A DNA stretch of 64,000 nucleotides from an uncultured Clostridia bacterium. GTDB lineage: Bacteria; Bacillota; Clostridia; UBA1381. Below, one piece after another: positions 6,679-17,467 of this stretch; positions within the stretch are counted from its first letter, which is position 1; each line of letters begins with the position of its first letter. The notes beneath the pieces are model-generated. The model saw nothing but the letters and a program-made list of their open reading frames with translations, searched no databases and was not told where the DNA came from. Both the position numbers and the translations under genes were made by a program. Location of the stretch: contig CANQJC010000002.1 in assembly GCA_947624165.1 (NCBI GenBank), forward strand, positions 1 through 64,000, written 5' to 3'.

Positions 6679-6707
6679 TTGACAAACTTTTTTCACTGTG
6701 CTAAAAT
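6679..6707 (+). promoter_or_regulatory. Consensus sigma-A promoter for glnA
   Basis: TTGACA at 6679-6684 and TAAAAT at 6702-6707 are 17 nt apart. Transcription should start near 6714, only about 5 nt before a terminator hairpin. Confidence 0.8.
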
Positions 6708-6715
6708 ATAGTGAG

Positions 6716-6758
6716 AGCAAAGGTGTTTCTTTTCTATGGGGAAGAAGTGCCTTTTTTT
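6716..6758 (+). terminator. Promoter-proximal intrinsic terminator (attenuator) in the glnA leader
   Basis: AAAGGTG at 6719-6725 and the following TTTCTTTTC pair with GGGAAGAAG and TGCCTTT (6739-6754) to give about 16 pairs including G-U wobbles, closed by a TATG loop at 6735-6738 and followed by a seven-T run (6752-6758). It lies between the promoter and glnA, so readthrough or antitermination is needed for glnA expression from that promoter. The 5' flank AGCAAAGGTGTTTC (6716-6729) recurs in the gltB leader at 11127. Confidence 0.8.
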
Positions 6759-6823
6759 GATAATACGCGCTTGAACATAAATAATCACATCGGATATATT
6801 TTAATGAAAGGAAAGTGGCTGCG

Positions 6824-8149
6824 ATGACGAAACACGACATTTTAAAGCTGGTTGAGGAGGAAGACGTTCGGTTTGTGCGCCTTCAGTTTACAGACATACT
6901 CGGCACGATGCGGAATATGGCTATTACAACGTCGAGACTTAAGGAAGCACTCAATAACGAGTGTATGTTCGACGGCTCCTCGATAAGAGGATTTGTAAGT
7001 ATAGAGGAAAGCGATTTGTATCTGCATCCCGACCTTGACACGTTCACGATTTTTCCGTGGCGTCCGCATCAGGGAAAGGTTGCGCGTCTTATCTGCGACG
7101 TATACAAGCCCGACGGTAAGCGGCTTGAAAGCGACCCGCGCCGTATTCTTCAGAACGTCGTCGACGAGGCGAAAAAAGAGGGGTATACCTTTGAGGTAGG
7201 TCCCGAATGTGAATTTTTCCTGTTTAATACAGACGAAAGAGGAAATCCCGTTATCGACCCGCATGACAACGCCGGTTATTTTGACCTTGCTCCGCTTGAC
7301 AACGGCGAAAACTGCCGCCGAGAGATATGTCTGACGCTTGAGGAAATGGGATATGCTGTCGAAACGTCGCATCATGAAATGGCACCCGGTCAGCATGAGA
7401 TAACGTTCCGTTACGACGACGCTCTCAAGACAGCCGACAGGATAGTTACGTTCCGCACGGTCGTCAAGACTATCGCGAAGCGCAGCGGACTGCACGCGAC
7501 GTTTATGCCCAAGCCTATGGAGGGTGAAAACGGCAGCGGTATGCACCTGACAATGTCGCTGAAAAAGGACGGAAAAAATGTATTTGCGTCCGATAAGCCC
7601 AACGGCAGACTTTCGGACACGGCATATAAGTTCATAGCGGGACTTTTGAAATACACGCCCGATATGGCGTGTCTGACGAATCCGACGGTCAATTCATACA
7701 AGAGGTTTATACCGGGTTATGAAGCACCGTGTTATATTTCATGGTCGGAGAGCAACCGCAGTCTGCTCGTCCGCGTACCGCCGTCGAGAAACAAGAACGA
7801 CGCGCGCGTGGAGCTTCGTTCGCCCGACCCGACGGCGAACCCTTATCTCGCGCTTGCGGCGTGTCTGAAGGCGGGTCTCGCGGGTATACGCGACAACGAA
7901 GAGCTTCCGCCGAGTATAGACGTAAACATCTACAAGCTGTCCGACAAGGAACGGGAGTATCTGGGAATAAAGAGCCTGCCCATAAGCCTTAACGAAGCGA
8001 TAGCAATAGGACGCAAATCGAAGTTCATATCTGAGCTTTTGGGCGAAAAATTTGCCGCCGGTTACTTTGACGCAAAGCAGGAGGAATACGGAGAATACCG
8101 CCGTACCATCAATCAATGGGAAATTGAAAAATATCTTATAGAATATTAA
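6824..8149 (+). CDS. glnA: Glutamine synthetase, type I
   Basis: A 441-residue GSI-alpha type enzyme (ATP + glutamate + ammonia to glutamine), with FDGSSIRGF near residue 50, metal-binding EVGPECEFFLF near 125, HHEMAPGQHEI near 187 and GSGMHLTMSL near 238. The length is that of the feedback-inhibited Firmicute form and I see no adenylylation-site loop. I chose ATG 6824, 9 nt after AAAGGAAAG, over GTG 6815, which overlaps the binding site. The gene lies behind a promoter-proximal terminator and is followed 27 nt later by an ANTAR regulator, so regulation by transcript termination is likely. Confidence 0.95.
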   Translation: MTKHDILKLVEEEDVRFVRLQFTDILGTMRNMAITTSRLKEALNNECMFDGSSIRGFVSIEESDLYLHPDLDTFTIFPWRPHQGKVARLICDVYKPDGKRLESDPRRILQNVVDEAKKEGYTFEVGPECEFFLFNTDERGNPVIDPHDNAGYFDLAPLDNGENCRREICLTLEEMGYAVETSHHEMAPGQHEITFRYDDALKTADRIVTFRTVVKTIAKRSGLHATFMPKPMEGENGSGMHLTMSLKKDGKNVFASDKPNGRLSDTAYKFIAGLLKYTPDMACLTNPTVNSYKRFIPGYEAPCYISWSESNRSLLVRVPPSRNKNDARVELRSPDPTANPYLALAACLKAGLAGIRDNEELPPSIDVNIYKLSDKEREYLGIKSLPISLNEAIAIGRKSKFISELLGEKFAAGYFDAKQEEYGEYRRTINQWEIEKYLIEY

Positions 8150-8176
8150 ACAATTCCCGATTAGGAGGTAGCGGCG

Positions 8177-8701
8177 GTGGAACGAGTGATACTGGCTTTT
8201 TCAAAGAATGAAACAGCCGACAAAATAAGAAGGATGCTTGACGGCAGCGGCTACGATATTTACGCCGTGTGCCATTCAAAGGCTGAGCTTCTGCGTTCCG
8301 TTACCGATATTGACGAGGTTCTTGTGATCATGGGCTATAAGCTGCCGGACGCCGTCGCGGACGAAGTAATGGACGATCTGAGCGAAGGGCATAAGCTTAT
8401 GAGCATAGTCAGAGCCGACAGGAAGAATGAAATTTACAATCAGGATATTTTCGTTGTAACGCTGCCGGTAAACAGGCAAATGCTTATAAACGCCATAGAA
8501 ACGTTTGTCGGAATTATAGAAAGACGCAAGCACAGAGCGAAGCGCACTCCGCAGGAGGAGAAAATAATAAACGACGCGAAGGCGTACCTGATGGAAAATC
8601 ACATGATGACGGAGGAACAGGCGCATCGTTTCATACAGAAGCGAAGTATGGACACGGGCGCGAAATTCACGGATACAGCGCGGCAGATACTCGGCATATA
8701 A
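8177..8701 (+). CDS. ANTAR-domain transcription antitermination regulator
   Basis: A 174-residue protein with an N-terminal receiver-like domain (about residues 1-110) and a C-terminal ANTAR RNA-binding helical domain (about 115-174; AKAYLMENHMMTEEQAHRFI). ANTAR proteins bind paired hairpins in leader RNA and prevent intrinsic termination, often at nitrogen-metabolism genes. The receiver part lacks a clear phospho-acceptor cluster: the early residues read LAFSKNETADKIRRML rather than an acidic pair. It may therefore sense a ligand or partner instead of phosphorylation. The GTG start at 8177 follows TAGGAGGT by 8 nt. Its position right after glnA makes the glnA and gltB leaders its most likely targets, which is inference. 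Confidence 0.85.
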   Translation: MERVILAFSKNETADKIRRMLDGSGYDIYAVCHSKAELLRSVTDIDEVLVIMGYKLPDAVADEVMDDLSEGHKLMSIVRADRKNEIYNQDIFVVTLPVNRQMLINAIETFVGIIERRKHRAKRTPQEEKIINDAKAYLMENHMMTEEQAHRFIQKRSMDTGAKFTDTARQILGI

Positions 8702-8774
8702 CGCTTTCGGGCGAATATCCCTACGGCGCGTCAAGAAGACGGACGCGATTTGCGGAATAACAGGAGTGTAAAAT

Positions 8775-9620
8775 ATGAATAAATTTAAATTTACGAAAAT
8801 GCAGGGAGCGGGAAACGATTATATTTACGTAAACTGCTTTGAAGAAACATTAAACGACATAAATGCGACGGCAAAAGCGGTGAGCGACAGACATTTCGGG
8901 ATAGGCTCGGACGGACTTGTTCTGATTTGTCCGTCGGACAAAGCGGACTTTCGCATGGATATGTATAACAGCGACGGTACGCAGGCTGAAATGTGCGGCA
9001 ACGCAACGCGCTGCGTCGGTAAGTACGTTCACGACAAGGGGCTTACGGACAAAACGGAGATCACGCTTGAAACGCTTGCCGGAATCAAAATTTTAAAGCT
9101 CAATCTCGATGAAAACGGTATGGTCGACACTGTCTGCGTCAATATGGGAAGTCCCGAGCTTGTGCCGAAGAACATTCCGATAGACTCCGATCTGGACAGA
9201 TTTATCCGGCAGCCTGTCGAGGTCGACGGAAAGGAATATCTTGTGACGGGCGTTTCGATGGGAAATCCGCACGCGGTTACATATATCGACGATGTGGACG
9301 GCTTGGAAATAGAAAAGCTCGGTCCTAAATTCGAAAATCACAAATTATTCCCGAAACGCATTAACACCGAATTTGCTCAAATCGTTGACAGAAAAACGAT
9401 AAAAATGCGCGTATGGGAACGCGGCGCGGGAGAAACTCTTGCCTGCGGCACGGGTGCATGCGCGACTATGGTCGCCGCGAATCTGTCCGAGTTGGTAGGC
9501 GACGAAGCGGATCTCGTTCTGCTCGGAGGAACGCTCCATATACGCTGGGACAAGAAGGAAAACAACGTCTACATGACGGGCCCCGCGAGGTTTGTGTTCG
9601 ACGGCGAAATAGAGGTGTAG
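8775..9620 (+). CDS. dapF: Diaminopimelate epimerase
   Basis: A 281-residue two-lobed PLP-independent epimerase converting LL- to meso-diaminopimelate for lysine and peptidoglycan. The family's catalytic cysteines are Cys74 (MCGNATRC) and Cys224 (ACGTGAC), and MQGAGNDYIYV near residue 9 is the usual N-terminal signature. It lies 73 nt after the ANTAR gene and upstream of dapL, which makes the LL-DAP substrate. An interspersed-repeat region follows its stop. No anomaly in length. Confidence 0.95.
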   Translation: MNKFKFTKMQGAGNDYIYVNCFEETLNDINATAKAVSDRHFGIGSDGLVLICPSDKADFRMDMYNSDGTQAEMCGNATRCVGKYVHDKGLTDKTEITLETLAGIKILKLNLDENGMVDTVCVNMGSPELVPKNIPIDSDLDRFIRQPVEVDGKEYLVTGVSMGNPHAVTYIDDVDGLEIEKLGPKFENHKLFPKRINTEFAQIVDRKTIKMRVWERGAGETLACGTGACATMVAANLSELVGDEADLVLLGGTLHIRWDKKENNVYMTGPARFVFDGEIEV

Positions 9621-9637
9621 AACCATAGGGGTTTTAT

Positions 9638-9725
9638 GTTAGTCTCTCCTTGAGGAGAGGTGGCAACGGATTTTAATACTGCCTCTCAGTCGCCTTCGCC
9701 GACAGCTCCCCTTAAGAGGAGCCAA
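9638..9725. repeat. Interspersed intergenic palindromic repeat
   Basis: The segment contains small hairpins: CTCTCC-TTGA-GGAGAG, a GTCG/CGAC pair around CCTTCGC, and CTCCCCTTAAGAGGAG. This composition (CCTCTCAGTCG, GCCGACAGCTCCCC) is of a kind I recall as dispersed between genes in many Oscillospirales-type genomes. It does not code and its function is unknown. Confidence 0.6.
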
Positions 9726-9740
9726 ACGATGGGCAGCACA

Positions 9741-9813
9741 TCGTAGGGGCGGTCATTGGCCGCCCGCATTTCAAACGATCCGCCCGTAGGGGCGACCCTC
9801 GCGGCCGCTCGCA
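9741..9813. repeat. Two adjacent GTAGGGGCG-type REP-like units
   Basis: CGTAGGGGCGGTCATTGGC followed by CGCCCGC (9742-9767) and CCGTAGGGGCGACC with CGCGGCCGCTCGC (9784-9812) are related units. A similar sequence, partly inverted, lies in the gltB leader (11167-11233). This looks like a second dispersed repeat family of this genome. Confidence 0.6.
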
Positions 9814-9858
9814 AATAATGTAAAAATTTCAAATTAACATATGAAAGGAACAATCAAA

Positions 9859-11070
9859 ATGGCAAAAATTAACGACAATTACTTGAAGCTCCCGGGAGCA
9901 TATCTGTTTTCGACCGTTGCAAAGAAGTCCGCGCAGTTCGGCGAAGAGCATCCCGATATGGAGATCATCAAAATGAGTATTGGCGACGTCACGAAGCCGC
10001 TCGCGCCCGCCGTGATAGAAGCGATACACAAGGCGACGGACGAAATGGGAACAGCGGAAGGGTTCAGAGGTTACGGTCCCGAGCAGGGCTATGATTTCCT
10101 GAGGAATAAAATAGTTGAAAAGGATTATAAAGCGAGGGGGATAGACATTCTTCCCGACGAGGTTTTCATTTCCGACGGAGCGAAGTCCGACTGCGGTAAC
10201 ATAGGAGATATTTTCTCCGTTGACAACAAGGTGGCGGTATGCGATCCCGTATATCCCGTTTATGTCGATACAAACGCTATGGCGGGACGCGCGGGAGATT
10301 TTGTTTCGGAGCACTGGACAAACCTTTACTACATGCCGTGTACCGAAGAGAACGGCTTTATGCCGGAGCTTCCGAAGGAAAAGGTCGACATTATCTACCT
10401 CTGTTTCCCCAACAACCCGACCGGAGTCGCGGCGACGAGAGAGCAGCTGAAACCGTGGGTCGAGTACGCGAAGGAAAACGGCTCGGTAATTCTTTACGAC
10501 AGCGCGTATGAAGCGTTTATAACGAATCCCGACGTGCCGCACAGCATATATGAAATAGAAGGCGCGAAAGAAGTGGCGATAGAGTTTCGGAGCTTCTCAA
10601 AAACGGCGGGCTTCACAGGTACGCGCTGCGCGTACACCGTTGTGCCGCACGACCTTAAAATCGACGGGACGGAGCTGAACGCGCTGTGGAACAGACGTCA
10701 ATGCACGAAATTCAACGGTGTTCCTTACATAATACAGCGCGCCGCCGAAGCGGTTTACTCGGACGAGGGTCAAAAGCAGACGAAGGAAGCCGTTGCGTAT
10801 TATCTTGAGAACGCGAAAATTATCCGCGAGTCGCTCACGGAAGCCGGACTTAAGGTTTACGGCGGCGAGAACGCGCCGTACATATGGGCAAAAGCTCCGA
10901 ACGGTATGAAATCGTGGGAATTCTTCGATAAAATTCTCGCGGAAACAGGCGTTGTGACGACCCCCGGCTCGGGATTCGGTCCGAGCGGCGAAGGATACGT
11001 AAGACTTACGGCATTTTCCACGAAGGAAAATACTATAAAGGCTATGGAAAAAATCAAATCAATTTTGTAG
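9859..11070 (+). CDS. dapL: LL-diaminopimelate aminotransferase
   Basis: A 403-residue fold-type I PLP aminotransferase that converts tetrahydrodipicolinate directly to LL-DAP, bypassing the succinylase and acetylase branches. The N-terminus [20 protein letters not shown] is characteristic of DapL. The PLP lysine is Lys248 in [17 protein letters not shown] 9859 sits 8 nt after AAAGGA; the ATG at 9841 overlaps that binding site and is rejected. With dapF just upstream, the two genes supply meso-DAP for the cell wall. A repeat-rich leader lies in front. Confidence 0.93.
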
Positions 11071-11080
11071 AATATCTCAG

Positions 11081-11109
11081 TAGACATGGGAATGTCGGTG
11101 TGATAGAAT
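11081..11109 (+). promoter_or_regulatory. Possible promoter for gltBD
   Basis: TAGACA at 11081-11086 and TAGAAT at 11104-11109 with a 17-nt spacer. It is weaker than the glnA promoter but correctly placed ahead of the leader foldback. Confidence 0.5.
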
Positions 11110-11126
11110 ATTTATAAGCATAACGA

Positions 11127-11276
11127 AGCAAAGGCGTTTCGGTCGGAAATGTTACATTTCAAATATGCAGGTACGGTCATTGACCGCCCGTACCCGATAT
11201 GATATCGGAGGGCGGCGGCGGTCGCCCCTACGAATGAGAAATTCAGTGTAACATATCTCGATTGAAACGTCTTTTT
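11127..11276 (+). promoter_or_regulatory. gltB leader foldback with glnA-like 5' arm and repeat insert
   Basis: AAGGCGTTTCGGTCG (11131-11145) pairs over 15 nt, with wobbles, with CGATTGAAACGTCTT (11259-11273). Inside it, ATGTTACA (11149-11156) pairs with TGTAACAT (11247-11254). A TTTTT run ends the structure. The 5' arm AGCAAAGGCGTTTC (11127-11140) matches the glnA leader element at 13 of 14 bases. The loop of about 90 nt contains a REP-like GTACGG...CCGTAC palindrome and a GGTCGCCCCTAC unit. It may be an attenuator whose loop was enlarged by a repeat, or a MITE-like element. Confidence 0.6.
11167..11233. repeat. REP-like repeat within the gltB leader
   Basis: Contains a CGGTC-ATT-GACCG hairpin nested in GGTAC/GTACC, a GATATGATATC palindrome and GGTCGCCCCTACG. 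The last is the inverted form of the GTAGGGGCGACC unit downstream of dapF. The repeat relationship is seen by eye between 9741-9813 and this segment. Confidence 0.55.
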
Positions 11277-11302
11277 ATGTATTGAAAGGGGAATTTAAGC
11301 AA

Positions 11303-14300
11303 ATGGAATACAACGGACTGCCGGAAAAGCAGGGTCTTTACGACCCGAAGTTTGAACATGACGCGTGCGGAATAGGCTTTATCGCGAATATCAAGGGTAA
11401 AACGTCTCACGCAATCATAAATCAGGCGATTCAGATTTTGAGAAATCTTGCTCATCGCGGCGGCGTAGGCTCTGAGCCGGACACGGGCGACGGCGCGGGT
11501 ATTCTTATTCAGATGCCGCACGCGTTCATGAAAAAGGTGTGCGGAAACGAGGGAATAAAGCTGCCGAAAAAGGGAGATTACGGCGTAGGTATGCTCTTTC
11601 TTTCGCCCGACGAGGACACGAGAGAGGAAAGCCTTAAGTCTCTTTCCAACATTATAGAACGCGAGGGACAGACGCTCCTGGGCATACGCGAGGTGCCTGT
11701 GTATGAGGTATGCATAGGTAACAGCGCGCGCGAAGCCATGCCGCATATTGTGCAGGTGTTTATAGGCAAAGGCTCAAAAATGAGCGCGGATGATTTTGAA
11801 AGACGTCTTTATGTAATCGGCAAGCTTGCCGAGAAGGAAATCAGAAAAACGGGAAACGACAATTACTTCTATTTCGCGTCGCTTTCGGCGAGAACGCTCG
11901 TGTACAAGGGTATGCTCACGCCCGACCAGGTCAACGAGTTTTATCTCGATTTGAAGGACGTCGATATGGAAACGGCTATCGCGCTCGTTCATTCGCGTTT
12001 CTCGACGAATACGTTCCCGTCGTGGGAAAGGGCGCATCCGAACAGATACATCATACATAACGGTGAAATCAACACGATACGCGGCAATGTAAACTGGGTA
12101 AAGGCGAGGGAGAGAATGTTCGCGACGCCCGAGTTTGAGGGCGACATGGATAAGATCCTGCCCGTAATAAATGAGGACGGCTCGGACAGCGCGATGCTGG
12201 ATAACTATTTGCAGTTCCTTCATCTTTCGGGATTTTCTCTGCCGCGCGCGGTCATGATGACGATACCCGAGCCGTGGGAGAACAACGATTCCATGGACCC
12301 CGAAATGAAGGCGTTTTATGAATATCATTCATGTATAACCGAACCGTGGGACGGTCCCGCAGCGGTCGCGTTTACGGACGGACGCTTCGTCGGCGCGACG
12401 CTTGACAGAAACGGTCTGCGTCCCGCGCGTTATTACCTGACCGACGACGATATGATTATCCTTTCGTCCGAGGTAGGCGTCGCGGACGTGGAGGAATCCG
12501 CAATTATACGCAAGGAACGTCTGCATCCGGGTAAAATGCTGCTCATAGATACGGAAAAGGGTAAAATAATTTCCGATGAGGAAATCAAGAAATATGAAGC
12601 GAAGCATAAGCCGTACAGTAAATGGGTAAAGAAAACGCTTGTGGAGCTTGACGATTTACCCGCGGAAAGCGGCAAGAAGGGAGACGCGTGGCACGACCTC
12701 GTGCGCCGTTTAAAGGAAAGCACAAACGGCGCAAGCGAGCATTTGATGCTCAAACATTTTATCGCGCTTGAAAATATGTTCGTTAACCGTGAGAACGGCG
12801 AGGACACTCTGCCGCTTCTTACCCGACAGAAGATATTCGGCTACACGTGGGAGGACGTGAATATGACGATCAAATCGATCGTTGAAAACGCAGACGACCC
12901 GATAGGAGCCATGGGTACCGATATACCGCTTGCCGCGCTGTCCGAAAAGCCGCAGCTTTTGTACAACTATTTCAAGCAGCTTTTCGCACAGGTGACAAAC
13001 CCGCCGATAGATGCGATAAGAGAACAGATAGTGACTTCGACGTATACGCTTTTCGGCTGCGAACAGAATCTTCTCACCTCCTCCGAGCTCAACTGCCGTA
13101 AGGTAAGAGCGTTAAGCCCGCTGCTTACGAACGAGGAGCTTAAAAAGCTCCGCGATATAGATCTTGAGGGCTTCCGTTCCATAACCATACCGTCGCTGTT
13201 CAACAAGAATCAGGAAAACGATATGGAGACGGCTATGGACACGATATTCGAAGCCGCTGATATAGCGATAGAAAACGGATATAACATAATCATACTTTCA
13301 GACAGAGGTTCCGACAGGAACAAGGCTCCGATACCCGCGCTGCTCGTATCGTCGGGACTGCATCATCATTTGATACGTAAGGGTACGCGCATGAAGGTGT
13401 CGATCGTGCTTGAATCGGGCGAACCGAGAGAAGTACATCATTTCGCATGTCTTATAGGTTACGGCGCGAACGGAGTAAATCCGTACATGGCTTACGAGAC
13501 TATCGAGGAGCTTGTTAACGAGAAGCTTCTCTCATGCACCGCCGAGGAGGGCGTTAAGCGTTTCAACAAGGCATGTACAAAGGGAATAGTAAAGGTAATG
13601 TCCAAAATGGGTATTTCCACAATACAGTCGTATCAGGGCGCGCAGATTTTTGAAGCACTCGGCATAGCGCAGAGCGTGACCGAGAAATATTTCACGGGTA
13701 CGACGACGCGTATCGGCGGCATAGGACTTGAACATATCCAAAGAGAAACTCTTATGCGTCACGCCGAAGCGTTCGACAAGGTAAACGGCAAAAAGGCATT
13801 AAAAACGGGCGGCGAATATAAATGGAGAGCCAAGGGCGAATACCATATGTTCAATCCCGAGAGTATTTATAAACTTCAGATGGCGTGCCGCAAGGGCGAC
13901 TATAAGCTCTATAAGGAATACGCGCGTGAAATGGACGCGCATCAGCAGCGTCAGTGTACAATACGCGGTATGCTCGATATAAAGACTATCGACAAGCCGA
14001 TAGCGATAGACAAGGTTGAAAGCGTCGAAAGCATCGTAAAGCGTTTCAAAACGGGCGCGATGTCCTACGGCTCGATATCGCTCGAAGCTCATGAATGTCT
14101 GGCGATAGCGATGAACCGTTTGGGCGGCAAGTCGAACAGCGGCGAGGGCGGCGAGAACCCAGAACGTTACATACCCGATGAAAACGGAGACAGCCGCTCA
14201 AGCGCGATAAAACAGGTCGCGTCGGGAAGATTCGGCGTGCATATTCACTATTTGCAGAATGCGAAAGAAATTCAAATCAAGATGGCGCAGGGCGCGAAGC

Positions 14301-15994
14301 CCGGCGAGGGCGGTCACCTGCCCGGCGGCAAGGTATATCCGTGGATAGCCAAGGCGAGACATTCGACGCCCGGAGTGGGACTTATCTCACCGCCGCCGCA
14401 TCACGATATATATTCGATAGAGGATCTGGCGCAGCTTATCCACGACCTTAAAAACGCGAACCGCGACGCGCGCGTTACGGTAAAGCTCGTATCGGAAGCC
14501 GGAGTGGGAACTATCGCCGTGGGCGTTGCGAAAGGCCGCGCCGACGTAATACTTGTATCCGGCTATGACGGCGGCACGGGCGCGGCTCCGAGAACAAGCG
14601 TAAGACACGCGGGACTTCCGTGGGAACTCGGCGTTGCGGAAACGCATCAGGCACTTTTGATGAACAACCTCAGAAACAGAGTAGTTATAGAGACGGACGG
14701 CAAGCTTTTGACGGGACGCGACGTGGCGGTCGCCGCGCTTTTGGGAGCGGAGGAATTCGGCTTTGCCACAGGTCCGCTGATTGCGATAGGCTGCGTAATG
14801 ATGCGCGTATGTAACCTCGATACGTGTCCCGTGGGCGTGGCGACGCAGAATCCGAAGCTGAGGAAACGTTTCTGCGGCAAGCCCGAATATGTGGAAAACT
14901 TCATGCGCTTTATCGCTCAGGATCTAAGGGAATGGATGGCGAAAATCGGCGTCAAGACTGTCGATGAAATGATCGGACACGTTGAAAGACTGAGCCAGAG
15001 AGTAATAGAAGACAATTGGAAGGCCAAGGAGGTAGACCTGTCGTCGCTTTTGTACCAGCCGAAAATATGTTCGAACGACTTCGAGCGTTATCATAACGTG
15101 ACGCAGGATCACGAGCTTTACAAAACGCTCGATATGAACACGCTGCTGAAATTGTGCGAACCGGCGATAAGAAACGGCAAGAAAATAGAAGCGAAGCTTA
15201 AAATCACGAATATAAACCGCGTCACGGGAACGATCCTTTCGTCCGAAATCGCGAGAGCGCACGGCGAAGAGGGATTGCCGGACGACAGCATAAAGCTGCA
15301 CTTTGTAGGAAGCGCGGGACAAAGCTTCGGCGCGTTCCTTGCCCCCGGCGTGACAATGAAGCTTGAGGGCGACAGTAACGACTATATAGGCAAGGGACTT
15401 TCGGGCGGCAAGATAATAGCGGTGCCGCCGTCGGACGTAAAATTCACGCCGTCGGAAAACGTAATCATAGGCAACGTCGCGTTCTACGGCGCGATAAAGG
15501 GCGAGGCTTATATACGCGGCTGCGCGGGAGAGCGTTTTTGCGTGCGTAACAGCGGTATGAGCGCGGTCGTCGAAGGTATAGGCGATCACGGATGCGAATA
15601 CATGACGGGCGGCTGCGTCGCCGTCATAGGAAAAACGGGCAGAAACTTTGCCGCAGGTATGTCAGGCGGTACCGCTTACGTTTACGACAAGGACGGCGAG
15701 CTTGACAAAAACTGTAACAAGGAACTTGTTCTCTTGGAGAAGCTTGACAAAAAAGATGCGGAAATACTTCGCTCAATGATAGAAAAGCATTACGAATATA
15801 CGAAAAGCGATATCGCAAAGAATATCTTAGACGATTGGGAAAACGAATCGAAACACTTCGTAAAGGTAATACCGAGCGACTATAAAAAGGTTGTGACCGT
15901 GCTTGACGACGAGCTTTCAAAGGGTACGGACCGCGACGCCGCGCTGCTCATGGCGTTCGAAAACGTGACAGGAAAAAAGATAGACGTAGCGTAA
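11303..15994 (+). CDS. gltB: Glutamate synthase, large subunit
   Basis: A 1563-residue glutamate synthase alpha subunit. After a 21-residue propeptide, Cys22 (HDACGIGF) would become the N-terminal nucleophile of the glutaminase domain (about 22-430). A central domain and an FMN-binding TIM barrel (about 820-1250) follow. The [3Fe-4S] cysteines are Cys1164, Cys1170 and Cys1175 (CVMMRVCNLDTCPVG), and a GXGXG beta-helix forms the C-terminus (about 1290-1520). It transfers glutamine amide nitrogen to 2-oxoglutarate. ATG 11303 is chosen over TTG 11282 because GAAAGGGG lies between them. gltD follows 18 nt later. Expression probably depends on the foldback leader. Confidence 0.95.
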   Translation: MEYNGLPEKQGLYDPKFEHDACGIGFIANIKGKTSHAIINQAIQILRNLAHRGGVGSEPDTGDGAGILIQMPHAFMKKVCGNEGIKLPKKGDYGVGMLFLSPDEDTREESLKSLSNIIEREGQTLLGIREVPVYEVCIGNSAREAMPHIVQVFIGKGSKMSADDFERRLYVIGKLAEKEIRKTGNDNYFYFASLSARTLVYKGMLTPDQVNEFYLDLKDVDMETAIALVHSRFSTNTFPSWERAHPNRYIIHNGEINTIRGNVNWVKARERMFATPEFEGDMDKILPVINEDGSDSAMLDNYLQFLHLSGFSLPRAVMMTIPEPWENNDSMDPEMKAFYEYHSCITEPWDGPAAVAFTDGRFVGATLDRNGLRPARYYLTDDDMIILSSEVGVADVEESAIIRKERLHPGKMLLIDTEKGKIISDEEIKKYEAKHKPYSKWVKKTLVELDDLPAESGKKGDAWHDLVRRLKESTNGASEHLMLKHFIALENMFVNRENGEDTLPLLTRQKIFGYTWEDVNMTIKSIVENADDPIGAMGTDIPLAALSEKPQLLYNYFKQLFAQVTNPPIDAIREQIVTSTYTLFGCEQNLLTSSELNCRKVRALSPLLTNEELKKLRDIDLEGFRSITIPSLFNKNQENDMETAMDTIFEAADIAIENGYNIIILSDRGSDRNKAPIPALLVSSGLHHHLIRKGTRMKVSIVLESGEPREVHHFACLIGYGANGVNPYMAYETIEELVNEKLLSCTAEEGVKRFNKACTKGIVKVMSKMGISTIQSYQGAQIFEALGIAQSVTEKYFTGTTTRIGGIGLEHIQRETLMRHAEAFDKVNGKKALKTGGEYKWRAKGEYHMFNPESIYKLQMACRKGDYKLYKEYAREMDAHQQRQCTIRGMLDIKTIDKPIAIDKVESVESIVKRFKTGAMSYGSISLEAHECLAIAMNRLGGKSNSGEGGENPERYIPDENGDSRSSAIKQVASGRFGVHIHYLQNAKEIQIKMAQGAKPGEGGHLPGGKVYPWIAKARHSTPGVGLISPPPHHDIYSIEDLAQLIHDLKNANRDARVTVKLVSEAGVGTIAVGVAKGRADVILVSGYDGGTGAAPRTSVRHAGLPWELGVAETHQALLMNNLRNRVVIETDGKLLTGRDVAVAALLGAEEFGFATGPLIAIGCVMMRVCNLDTCPVGVATQNPKLRKRFCGKPEYVENFMRFIAQDLREWMAKIGVKTVDEMIGHVERLSQRVIEDNWKAKEVDLSSLLYQPKICSNDFERYHNVTQDHELYKTLDMNTLLKLCEPAIRNGKKIEAKLKITNINRVTGTILSSEIARAHGEEGLPDDSIKLHFVGSAGQSFGAFLAPGVTMKLEGDSNDYIGKGLSGGKIIAVPPSDVKFTPSENVIIGNVAFYGAIKGEAYIRGCAGERFCVRNSGMSAVVEGIGDHGCEYMTGGCVAVIGKTGRNFAAGMSGGTAYVYDKDGELDKNCNKELVLLEKLDKKDAEILRSMIEKHYEYTKSDIAKNILDDWENESKHFVKVIPSDYKKVVTVLDDELSKGTDRDAALLMAFENVTGKKIDVA

Positions 15995-16012: not shown

Positions 16013-17467
16013 ATGGGAAAACCAACAGGATTTTTAGAATATGACCGTCATCTTCCCGAGGACAGACCTCCGAAGGAAAGAATGAACGACTGGGACGAAT
16101 TTCATACGCATCTCGACATAGAAAAGCTTCGCCTTCAGGGCGCGAGATGCATGGACTGCGGCGTTCCGTTCTGCCATACGGGAAAGCAAATCGGCAGAAC
16201 TTCGATAGGCTGCCCGTTAAACAATCTCATACCCGAATGGAACGACCTCGTTTACAGAGGTGATATTGACGAAGCGTACAGACGGCTCTCGCTCACGAAC
16301 AATTTCCCCGAATTTACGGGAAGAGTATGTCCCGCGCTTTGTGAAGGCTCATGCACGCTCGGTATGCACGACCCCGCCGTTACCATACGAAGCATAGAAT
16401 GTCACATCATAGACACGATGTTCGACGAAGGCAAGGTAGAGGTGAGAATACCCGAAAAATCGACGGAAAAGCGCGTAGCCGTAGTTGGCAGCGGCCCCTC
16501 TGGACTTGCCTGCGCCGACCAGCTTAATCAGATGGGACACCGCGTGACCGTGTTCGAACGCGCAGACAGAGCCGGCGGACTGCTGATGTACGGCATACCT
16601 AACATGAAGCTCGACAAGAGCGTTGTCGCGCGGCGCGTTGCTTTGATGGAGAAGGAGGGAATAACCTTTCGTCTCAACACGGAGATAGGAAAGAATTATC
16701 CCGCTGTAAAACTCGTGAACGAATTTGACGCGGTCGTGCTTTGCTGCGGAGCCACAAAACCGAGACCTTTAAGCGTCGAGGGCGCGTCGCTTAAAGGCGT
16801 GCATTACGCCGTGGATTTCCTCAAGGCGAATACAAAAAGTATGCTCGATTCAAATTTTGAGGACAGAATGTTTATAAACGCGAAGGATAAGCACGTCGTT
16901 GTTATCGGCGGCGGCGATACGGGAACGGATTGCGTTGGTACCGCGATACGTCACGGATGCGCGAGCGTTGCGCAGCTTGAGATAATGCCGGAGCTTTCCG
17001 AGGAGCGGCTCCCGGATAATCCGTGGCCCGAATGGCCGAGGATCAAAAAGACCGATTACGGTCAGGAGGAAGCGATAGAGCTGTACGGACACGATCCCAG
17101 AGAATACCTCACAACGGTTACGAAGATAGACGCCGACGAAAAGGGACAGGTAAAAACCCTTCATACGGTGAAGGTGGATTGGTCGTCGGGTTCGCCCGTA
17201 CCCGTAAAGGGAACGGAGAGCGCGCGTCCGTGCGAGCTGGTGCTTATAGCCATGGGCTTCACAGGTCCCGAGCAGGAGCTTTTGTCACAGCTTACGCTCG
17301 ATACCGACGCGCGCAGCAATATACTCGCGTCGGAGGAGGATTACAAGACAAGTCTGAGAGGTGTTTTCGCCGCGGGAGACTGCCGCAGAGGTCAAAGTCT
17401 CGTCGTCTGGGCGATACGCGAGGGCAGACGCGCCGCCGATGCGGTCGATGAATTTTTAATGAAATAA
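16013..17467 (+). CDS. gltD: Glutamate synthase, small (beta) subunit
   Basis: A 484-residue FAD- and NAD(P)H-binding oxidoreductase with an N-terminal double iron-sulphur region (CMDCGVPFCHTG, GCPLNN, CPALCEGSC). A first dinucleotide fold VAVVGSGPSGLACA lies near residue 155, a second fold VVIGGGDTGTDC near 297, and a C-terminal AAGDCRRGQSLVVWAI motif is present. It passes electrons from NAD(P)H to the FMN of GltB. It forms a two-gene operon with gltB (GGAGG 11 nt before ATG) ending at a strong bidirectional terminator. A paralogue, NfnB, is at 51338. Confidence 0.95.
   Translation: MGKPTGFLEYDRHLPEDRPPKERMNDWDEFHTHLDIEKLRLQGARCMDCGVPFCHTGKQIGRTSIGCPLNNLIPEWNDLVYRGDIDEAYRRLSLTNNFPEFTGRVCPALCEGSCTLGMHDPAVTIRSIECHIIDTMFDEGKVEVRIPEKSTEKRVAVVGSGPSGLACADQLNQMGHRVTVFERADRAGGLLMYGIPNMKLDKSVVARRVALMEKEGITFRLNTEIGKNYPAVKLVNEFDAVVLCCGATKPRPLSVEGASLKGVHYAVDFLKANTKSMLDSNFEDRMFINAKDKHVVVIGGGDTGTDCVGTAIRHGCASVAQLEIMPELSEERLPDNPWPEWPRIKKTDYGQEEAIELYGHDPREYLTTVTKIDADEKGQVKTLHTVKVDWSSGSPVPVKGTESARPCELVLIAMGFTGPEQELLSQLTLDTDARSNILASEEDYKTSLRGVFAAGDCRRGQSLVVWAIREGRRAADAVDEFLMK

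Follow-up and report, generated by a model that had tools for sequence, protein, structure and literature searches.

The DNA considered here (the window) is a stretch of 64,000 nucleotides (nt) from the genome of an uncultured Clostridia bacterium, which comprises 1.76 Mb in 40 contigs and is 82% complete. In it, the genes for glutamine synthetase (glnA) and glutamate synthase (gltBD) are each preceded by a leader with a common 14-nt element, and a gene for a NitR-like ANTAR protein lies directly after glnA. An ANTAR antitermination regulon before glnA and gltB is well supported by the sequence comparisons given below, and its switch seems to use one hexaloop hairpin instead of two. The features concerned, all on the plus strand, are these:

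6679-6707 (+): glnA promoter, TTGACA-17-TAAAAT with TG before the -10 (11/12 consensus matches); start of transcription estimated near 6713-6714
6715-6728 (+): ANTAR-type hairpin of the glnA leader, GAGC[AAAGGU]GUUU; hexaloop 6719-6724, with A1 at 6719 and G4 at 6722
6719-6758 (+): intrinsic terminator of the glnA leader (stem 6719-6754, 16 pairs; T-run 6752-6758), overlapping the loop and 3' arm of the hairpin
6757-6785 (+): additional promoter-like site, TTGATA-17-AATAAT (10/12), downstream of the glnA terminator
6824-8149 (+): glnA, type I glutamine synthetase; the ATG at 6824 was chosen, and the list of open reading frames (ORFs) begins at GTG 6815
8177-8701 (+): nitR-like gene for an ANTAR protein of 174 amino acids (aa) (PF03861, E 7.8e-15), directly after glnA
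11081-11109 (+): gltB promoter-like site, TAGACA-17-TAGAAT (10/12); start estimated near 11116
11124-11141 (+): ANTAR-type hairpin of the gltB leader, CGAAGC[AAAGGC]GUUUCG; hexaloop 11130-11135, 6 base pairs (bp)
11130-11276 (+): intrinsic terminator of the gltB leader, a long stem with a structured insert (T-run 11272-11276), overlapping the hairpin
11169-11232 (+): palindromic repeat-like insert that splits the loop of the gltB terminator (split region 11142-11262); its pieces resemble the repeat at 9743-9806
11303-15994 (+): gltB, glutamate synthase large subunit; the ORF list begins at TTG 11282
16013-17467 (+): gltD, glutamate synthase small subunit

A previous reading made from the letters alone (the sequence-only reading) had placed the two 14-mers at 6716-6729 and 11127-11140, each after a promoter, and had described the element as the 5' arm of a terminator-like stem. 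These places and the promoter-like sites were confirmed, as were the terminators, at 6719-6754 and from 11130 to about 11275. The 14-mer is the 5' arm of the terminator and also most of a small hexaloop hairpin. According to the published rule, ANTAR targets are hairpins with a hexaloop that has A at position 1 and G at position 4 (PMC3369931), and both window leaders comply with it, with a stem of at least 3 bp, A1 and G4. Before glnA, the hairpin stem is weak (4 bp, two of them G-U). The sequence-only reading had seen no canonical hexaloop motif; on this point it was wrong in part, because the element is itself an A1/G4 hexaloop hairpin, although the partner hexaloop that completes the canonical motif was indeed not found. 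Since the loop and the 3' arm of the hairpin are the 5' arm of the terminator, hairpin and terminator are mutually exclusive.

Within the window, AGCAAAGGYGTTTC is matched exactly at two places only, one upstream of glnA and the other upstream of gltB (0 of 100 dinucleotide shuffles), and the same two are the only ones in the complete set of contigs of this genome, where the reversed control pattern has one. When two mismatches are allowed, two matches are found against 0.96 expected, and the pattern alone is not significant. A compound motif combines the hexaloop hairpin with a sequence further downstream that pairs with its loop and 3' arm and runs into T's. When either strand of the window is searched, this motif occurs at the same two sites and nowhere else, while 100 shuffled windows gave a mean of 0.06 and never reached two; the search expression was derived from the glnA and gltB leaders themselves. 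The gltB leader (11122-11285) has a predicted fold of -65.5 kcal/mol (z -6.2), and its -10 ends 20 nt upstream of the hexaloop.

A lack of conservation before glnA and gltB orthologues would have refuted the sequence-only reading, but the element proved to be conserved there. Of the 70 genomes searched in the window's family, an ANTAR match was obtained in 59, of which 51 carry a nitR orthologue (judged from an E-value gap), and 58 have a gltB match, several of them distant. Leaders were taken as up to 260 nt upstream of glnA or gltB, with 58 of the 59 requested regions obtained, and the element was located by a sequence expression in 44/48 glnA rows and 32/44 gltB rows. Three of the rows without it are incomplete (L078, L034, L038), and in L035 and L037 covariance-model matches lie just past the 260-nt limit (E 0.085 and 3.5e-6, respectively). 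After removal of duplicates, 44 glnA and 28 gltB leaders (26 of the latter distinct) were retained. In their alignment, C, A1, A2, G4 and the closing G are constant because the search expression demands them, and this constancy therefore has no value as evidence. To be free of such fixed letters, a scan blind to the loop was run. In 39 gltB leaders, terminator-overlapping hairpins of at least 5 bp have a 6-nt loop in 25 cases, 24 of them with A1 and G4, and loops of 4, 5, 7 and 8 nt in 3, 1, 0 and 14 cases; the 8-nt loops are taken as the same hairpin minus its closing pair, the cases not having been individually checked. In 47 glnA leaders, loops of 4 to 8 nt number 12, 3, 9, 4 and 2, with A1/G4 in eight of the nine six-base loops. 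Judged by these loop-size counts, gltB gives a strong loop-blind signal and glnA does not.

Covariation points in the same direction, being clear for the hairpin before gltB and weak before glnA, and the terminator that the hairpin excludes covaries too. All the shuffles used here ignore relatedness. Over the 28 gltB leaders, 91% of the cells of the hairpin are paired, five of its six pairs have changes on both sides, and the score is 0.529 versus 0.288 in shuffled alignments (0/500), with slid versions reaching at most 0.245. The glnA hairpin (44 leaders) scores 0.362 versus 0.254 (0/500). For the terminator, 95.5% of cells are paired, both-side changes occur in 7/12 pairs and the score is 0.499 versus 0.292 (0/500), in a chosen set of 46 of the 72 leaders from which 14 glnA leaders (mostly with stems of 2-3 bp or near duplicates) and 12 gltB leaders (including those with long inserts) were dropped.

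The search of relatives with a covariance model, proposed as a check by the sequence-only reading, was carried out with a model (R1) of these 46 leaders that contains the hairpin pairs only. R1 recovers the gltB leader of the window, which lies outside the training set (11122-11280, 26.2 bits, E 2e-4), and leaders of glnN, the gene for type III glutamine synthetase. The glnA leader, a training-set member, is matched at 6711-6760 (49.9 bits), and nothing besides these two leaders falls below E 1 in the window. In a stricter genome-wide run, the gltB site of the window has 23.1 bits and E 0.035. Matches to R1 occur in 58/70 family genomes at E up to 0.1, training sequences included. Among 39 hand-picked further sites of the family, 25 lie directly before glnN. 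This gene was identified by inspection of the translated starts, with a PF12437 match on the copy in the window's own genome (L187) as anchor; the leader of that copy is a weak R1 match (E 0.039). NCBIfam provided no family for the ANTAR protein or for GlnN. A few sites precede gatCA (two; gatA of one was checked), amtB, a C26 peptidase gene or the gene of an amino-acid ABC binding protein, three precede a gene for a circularly permuted ATP-grasp protein (one was checked), and a gene with a glutamate-synthase domain lies about 1.2 kb downstream of another. Circularly permuted ATP-grasp genes follow the element in several genera (L157, by Pfam; L174, L178 and L261, by eye). Two further weak R1 matches, before purF in the window's own genome (L188; terminator not visible) and before a DtxR-type gene (L170), are probably due to chance.

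Beyond the family, the element and ANTAR proteins were compared in 391 evenly drawn Clostridia genomes, 376 of them outside the family. R1 matches 98/391 genomes at E up to 0.01, and the ANTAR profile 185/391 at E up to 1e-6, counting any ANTAR protein and not NitR alone. Outside the family, 75 genomes have both, 12 the element only, 97 the ANTAR protein only and 192 neither (odds ratio 12.4, Fisher p 1.3e-18, relatedness ignored); that is, an ANTAR protein is found in 75/87 genomes with the element versus 97/289 without it. At E up to 1e-4, the proportion is 27/29 genomes. Of the 114 R1 matches in these genomes, at least 29 have an ANTAR gene no more than 15 kb away, a raw count given without a chance level. 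The 21 best-scoring new loci of the class are followed by a type III glutamine synthetase-like protein in 10 cases and a glnA-like one in two (by eye). In the opposite direction, starting from the protein, the result is mixed: among 30 glnA regions that, outside the family, adjoin NitR-like genes, an A1/G4 hairpin with a terminator-like arm was flagged in 12, of which seven are convincing (L321, L323, L324, L327, L328, L329 and L331), and four have only other A1/G4 hairpins.

The protein encoded after glnA consists of a degenerate receiver-like N-terminal part and a C-terminal ANTAR domain and, as is proper to the NitR type, its gene accompanies glnA. A profile of 22 family sequences, when compared with solved structures, matches Rv1626, NasR and EutV, and AmiR weakly; the ANTAR domain can be aligned with its counterparts in EutV, AmiR and NasR. 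The Pfam receiver domain has no match in the protein at E up to 0.001, and Gly53, invariant in the 22 sequences, aligns with the phospho-acceptor Asp of EutV and Rv1626. Because Gly replaces the phosphorylated Asp, activation is likely to be independent of phosphorylation and AmiR-like. The RNA contacts of EutV include Lys149, Glu160, Met172 and Tyr164 (PMC8934654), and invariant Lys, Glu and Met residues in NitR correspond to the first three of them, under an inferred offset of 2 between the EutV chain and the numbering of that paper.

A regulon of this kind is already known, since both the control of genes for glutamine synthetase and glutamate synthase (GS/GOGAT) by NitR and the hits of a dual-hairpin model have been published: in Clostridium saccharobutylicum NCP262, the ANTAR protein NitR, which is capable of antitermination, likewise induces GS/GOGAT genes upon nitrogen limitation (PMC6316151), and glutamate and glutamine synthase genes are reported among the ANTAR hits of that model (PMC3369931). 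What is new is the single-hexaloop variant, not the antitermination principle. The primary source for the C. saccharobutylicum NitR is reportedly Stutz et al. 2007, as cited by a review, and in that bacterium nitR presumably also lies in the neighbourhood of glnA. The RNAs bound by EutV in the eut system of Enterococcus faecalis share with the window leaders an A1/G4 hexaloop hairpin that overlaps the 5' part of terminators, and their common 13-mer, AGCAANGRRGCUY, resembles AGCAAAGGYGTTTC (PMC3369931). But while EutV has a phosphorylated receiver and needs sites with two hexaloops 5-12 nt apart, in the window system only a single hexaloop was seen and the phosphorylated Asp is replaced by Gly. 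AmiR of Pseudomonas aeruginosa shares the pseudo-receiver and the ANTAR domain; it is regulated by protein contact with AmiC (PMC8934654) and is described as having a dual-hairpin target (PMC3369931), whereas the neighbours of nitR are glnA and dapF and not an AmiC-like gene.

The sequence-only reading had proposed that glnA and gltBD form an attenuation regulon under the ANTAR protein, and this proposal gains support from the conservation, the covariation, the glnN sites and the co-occurrence with ANTAR proteins. We consider it probable that glnA, gltBD and glnN make up an antitermination regulon of the NitR-like protein encoded after glnA. By default, the nascent leader would fold the terminator and RNA polymerase would halt before the gene. 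In the active state, NitR would bind the short hairpin at its A1/G4 hexaloop; as this hairpin takes up the 5' arm of the terminator, the terminator would be blocked and the operon transcribed. A single hexaloop, located before glnA near the 5' end of the transcript, would thus replace the two needed in the eut system. The regulon would be switched on under nitrogen limitation, and it probably responds to a protein partner or a metabolite that reports nitrogen (or glutamine) status and, given that the receiver-like domain lacks a phosphorylation site, not to a kinase. Comparison of the sequences demonstrates the hairpin, the terminator, the mutual exclusion of the two, the covariation, the conservation and the ANTAR co-occurrence; we infer the binding by NitR, the direction of control, the start sites and the signal.

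ANTAR targets in two published surveys are dual, at least as these describe them (PMC3369931; PMC8164766), and the leaders could therefore hold a canonical dual-hexaloop element whose second hairpin has a loop or stem unrecognised by the scan, for instance in the apical loop of the terminator. This we regard as unlikely. A strict scan for a second hexaloop (A1/G4 with four or more bp and no more than one G-U, sought between 45 nt upstream and the T-run) gave 0/28 gltB leaders (1.6 expected) and 2/44 glnA leaders (1.7-2.2 expected), at or below chance. With any number of G-U pairs allowed, the counts were 0/28 (2.7 expected) and 7/44 (2.6 expected) at 4 bp, and 2/28 (4.3-5.5 expected) and 12/44 (5.5 expected) at 3 bp. 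Hence the gltB leaders stay below expectation throughout, and the permissive excess before glnA is what favours a second hairpin; nevertheless, these extra hexaloops have scattered offsets (-35 to +27), several of them pair with the T-run, and the permissive scan yielded none in the window's own glnA leader. The strict scan recovers the known first hairpin in 26/28 gltB and 22/44 glnA leaders and, for this reason, is more telling for gltB; it also picks up a textbook dual element, complete with its terminator, in one of 30 PduV-EutP loci (L267), which makes a thin positive control. In addition, in 39/44 glnA leaders the end of the -10 and the hexaloop are 9-17 nt apart, and a predicted start some 6-7 nt past the -10 would leave about 3-11 nt before the loop and, therefore, room for one stem arm only. 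The promoters of gltB are less clear, and their -10-to-hexaloop distances vary among leaders. The two hairpins with a short linker that define the dual element (PMC3369931) are thus not what the family leaders display. In favour of the dual arrangement, among the 21 class loci a second A1/G4 hexaloop occupies the terminator tip of L241 and L258 (L258/L328) and a 4-bp one lies 87 nt upstream in L250; a terminator-tip hexaloop is also seen in L321, and leaders L308, L310 and L312 of family f53 look dual. Since L241, L258 and L321 carry a second hexaloop and the f53 leaders look dual, other lineages may differ from the window's family.

Two other explanations do away with the ANTAR protein or with the switch itself. 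The leaders might be attenuated by another factor (a small RNA, a ribosomal protein or a ligand), with the ANTAR neighbour being incidental. This is quite improbable: the loop letters fit the ANTAR rule and the EutV 13-mer, the association with ANTAR proteins across Clostridia is strong and partly one of close proximity, and neither leader has an Rfam match at E up to 1, nor have four related loci at the gathering score. The structures might also be ordinary terminators of upstream transcripts placed after promoters, with the hexaloop as a by-product of an A-rich terminator start, since terminators often begin with A's that pair with the U-tract and the glnA hairpin is weak. We deem this very improbable. 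Before gltB, the outer 5' stem arm, which lies outside the terminator, covaries with the 5' arm of the terminator, whose distal arm ends 23-37 nt upstream of the start codon in 19/28 leaders. A promoter of at least 10/12 precedes the element in 38/44 glnA leaders, but in only 11/28 gltB leaders, a count that fits ordinary terminators better; between terminator and start codon, such a promoter is found in 0/28 gltB leaders and in 1/44 glnA leaders. Several observations weigh against the NitR antitermination regulon in its single-hexaloop form. The one glnA leader just mentioned is the window's own, with its promoter-like site at 6757-6785 downstream of the terminator. The glnA hairpin is weak in the family at large (72.9% of cells paired over 44 leaders, some leaders having 2-3 bp), its both-side changes and further pair types fail against shuffles (127 and 470 of 500), and in the loop-blind scan its 6-nt loops (9/47) are no commoner than 4-nt loops (12/47). 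Some gltB leaders lack the element, including three of genus g2 (L110, L111 and L120). Outside the family, 12 of the 87 element-bearing genomes are without a detected ANTAR protein, and in 14 of the 30 glnA regions beside NitR-like genes the scan found no A1/G4 hexaloop hairpin (L315 is incomplete, and L320 has a 3-bp version by eye), both of which favour another factor. As for the protein, an invariant His occupies the position of Tyr164 of EutV, as it does in AmiR. And EutV is reported to require both hexaloops in vivo (PMC3369931; PMC8934654).

Even so, with respect to the antitermination regulon with one hexaloop, the ANTAR switch before glnA and gltB seems to work with one hairpin instead of two. 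Regarding its wider extent, chances are about even that nitrogen assimilation across many Clostridia is governed by a single-hexaloop class, which is positioned near the 5' end of the transcript and works with a pseudo-receiver ANTAR protein; that the targets of such a class are glnA, gltBD, glnN and, in places, amtB and gatCA is a proposition we hold with evenly balanced confidence. According to PMC8934654, the EutV dimer makes contact with only one hexaloop at any moment, and the minimal site is redefined there as one hexaloop; the same paper mentions an extra single hexaloop in EutX and sites of Mycobacterium tuberculosis that sometimes depart from the dual rule, calls for bioinformatic searches of single-hexaloop sites, and suggests that single hexaloops are used where the moving polymerase sets no time limit. 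The window leaders offer a conserved single-hexaloop candidate that overlaps a terminator near the transcript start, where time is shortest. If true, this class contradicts the model in which the upstream hexaloop first recruits the protein. The role of the first hexaloop becomes directly testable, and nitrogen control in uncultured Clostridia is extended to glnN. The two surveys, as described, required two hairpins (PMC3369931; PMC8164766), and the single-hexaloop class would therefore have been passed over. Our search of the open-access literature found no report of a single-hexaloop terminator class or of glnN in an ANTAR regulon.

Some family leaders and genomes deviate from the common layout. 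Nineteen family genomes are without a nitR orthologue; nine of these (L297-L305) have a different glnA, with 45-48% identity, and in eight of the nine another, longer ANTAR gene (a frame of about 200 aa) directly follows glnA, which makes a second, diverged glnA-ANTAR pair. A comparable element was not found in the glnA leaders of L297-L305, which are too divergent for a clean control (the leader of L298 has only 47 nt), and two 4-bp A1/G4 hairpins in L303 were taken as chance. Some glnA leaders of genus g9 (L090, L091 and L093) are longer by about 45 nt upstream of the element, where a GC-rich hairpin and a common GAGATGATTTTGCAA stretch are found; the other glnA leaders are short. In the f53 glnA leaders (L308-L310, L312, L313 and L317), an A1/G4 hexaloop hairpin of 7-10 bp is present and the terminator is not clear; in several of them, a GC-rich hairpin comes next, just upstream of the ribosome site. 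These leaders possibly represent ANTAR control of translation.

The insert in the loop of the gltB terminator, when searched in its own genome as a single 123-bp piece, found only itself, and 20-22-nt pieces similar to it occur in the intergenic repeat at 9743-9806. Inserts of comparable size, with shared GGAAATGTTA flanks, are present in L042 and L048, and L047, of the same genus as L048, has no insert at this place. A structured repeat seems to be tolerated within the regulatory gltB terminator. Between glnA-nitR and gltBD (8775-11070) lie dapF and a gene for a class I/II aminotransferase, presumably of the LL-diaminopimelate type. In a different family, an R1 match (L243) sits 370 nt upstream of a dapF-like gene, a position hinting that lysine biosynthesis is perhaps part of the nitrogen regulon there. 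The window also contains a 6S RNA at 2634-2826 (RF00013, 76.1 bits).

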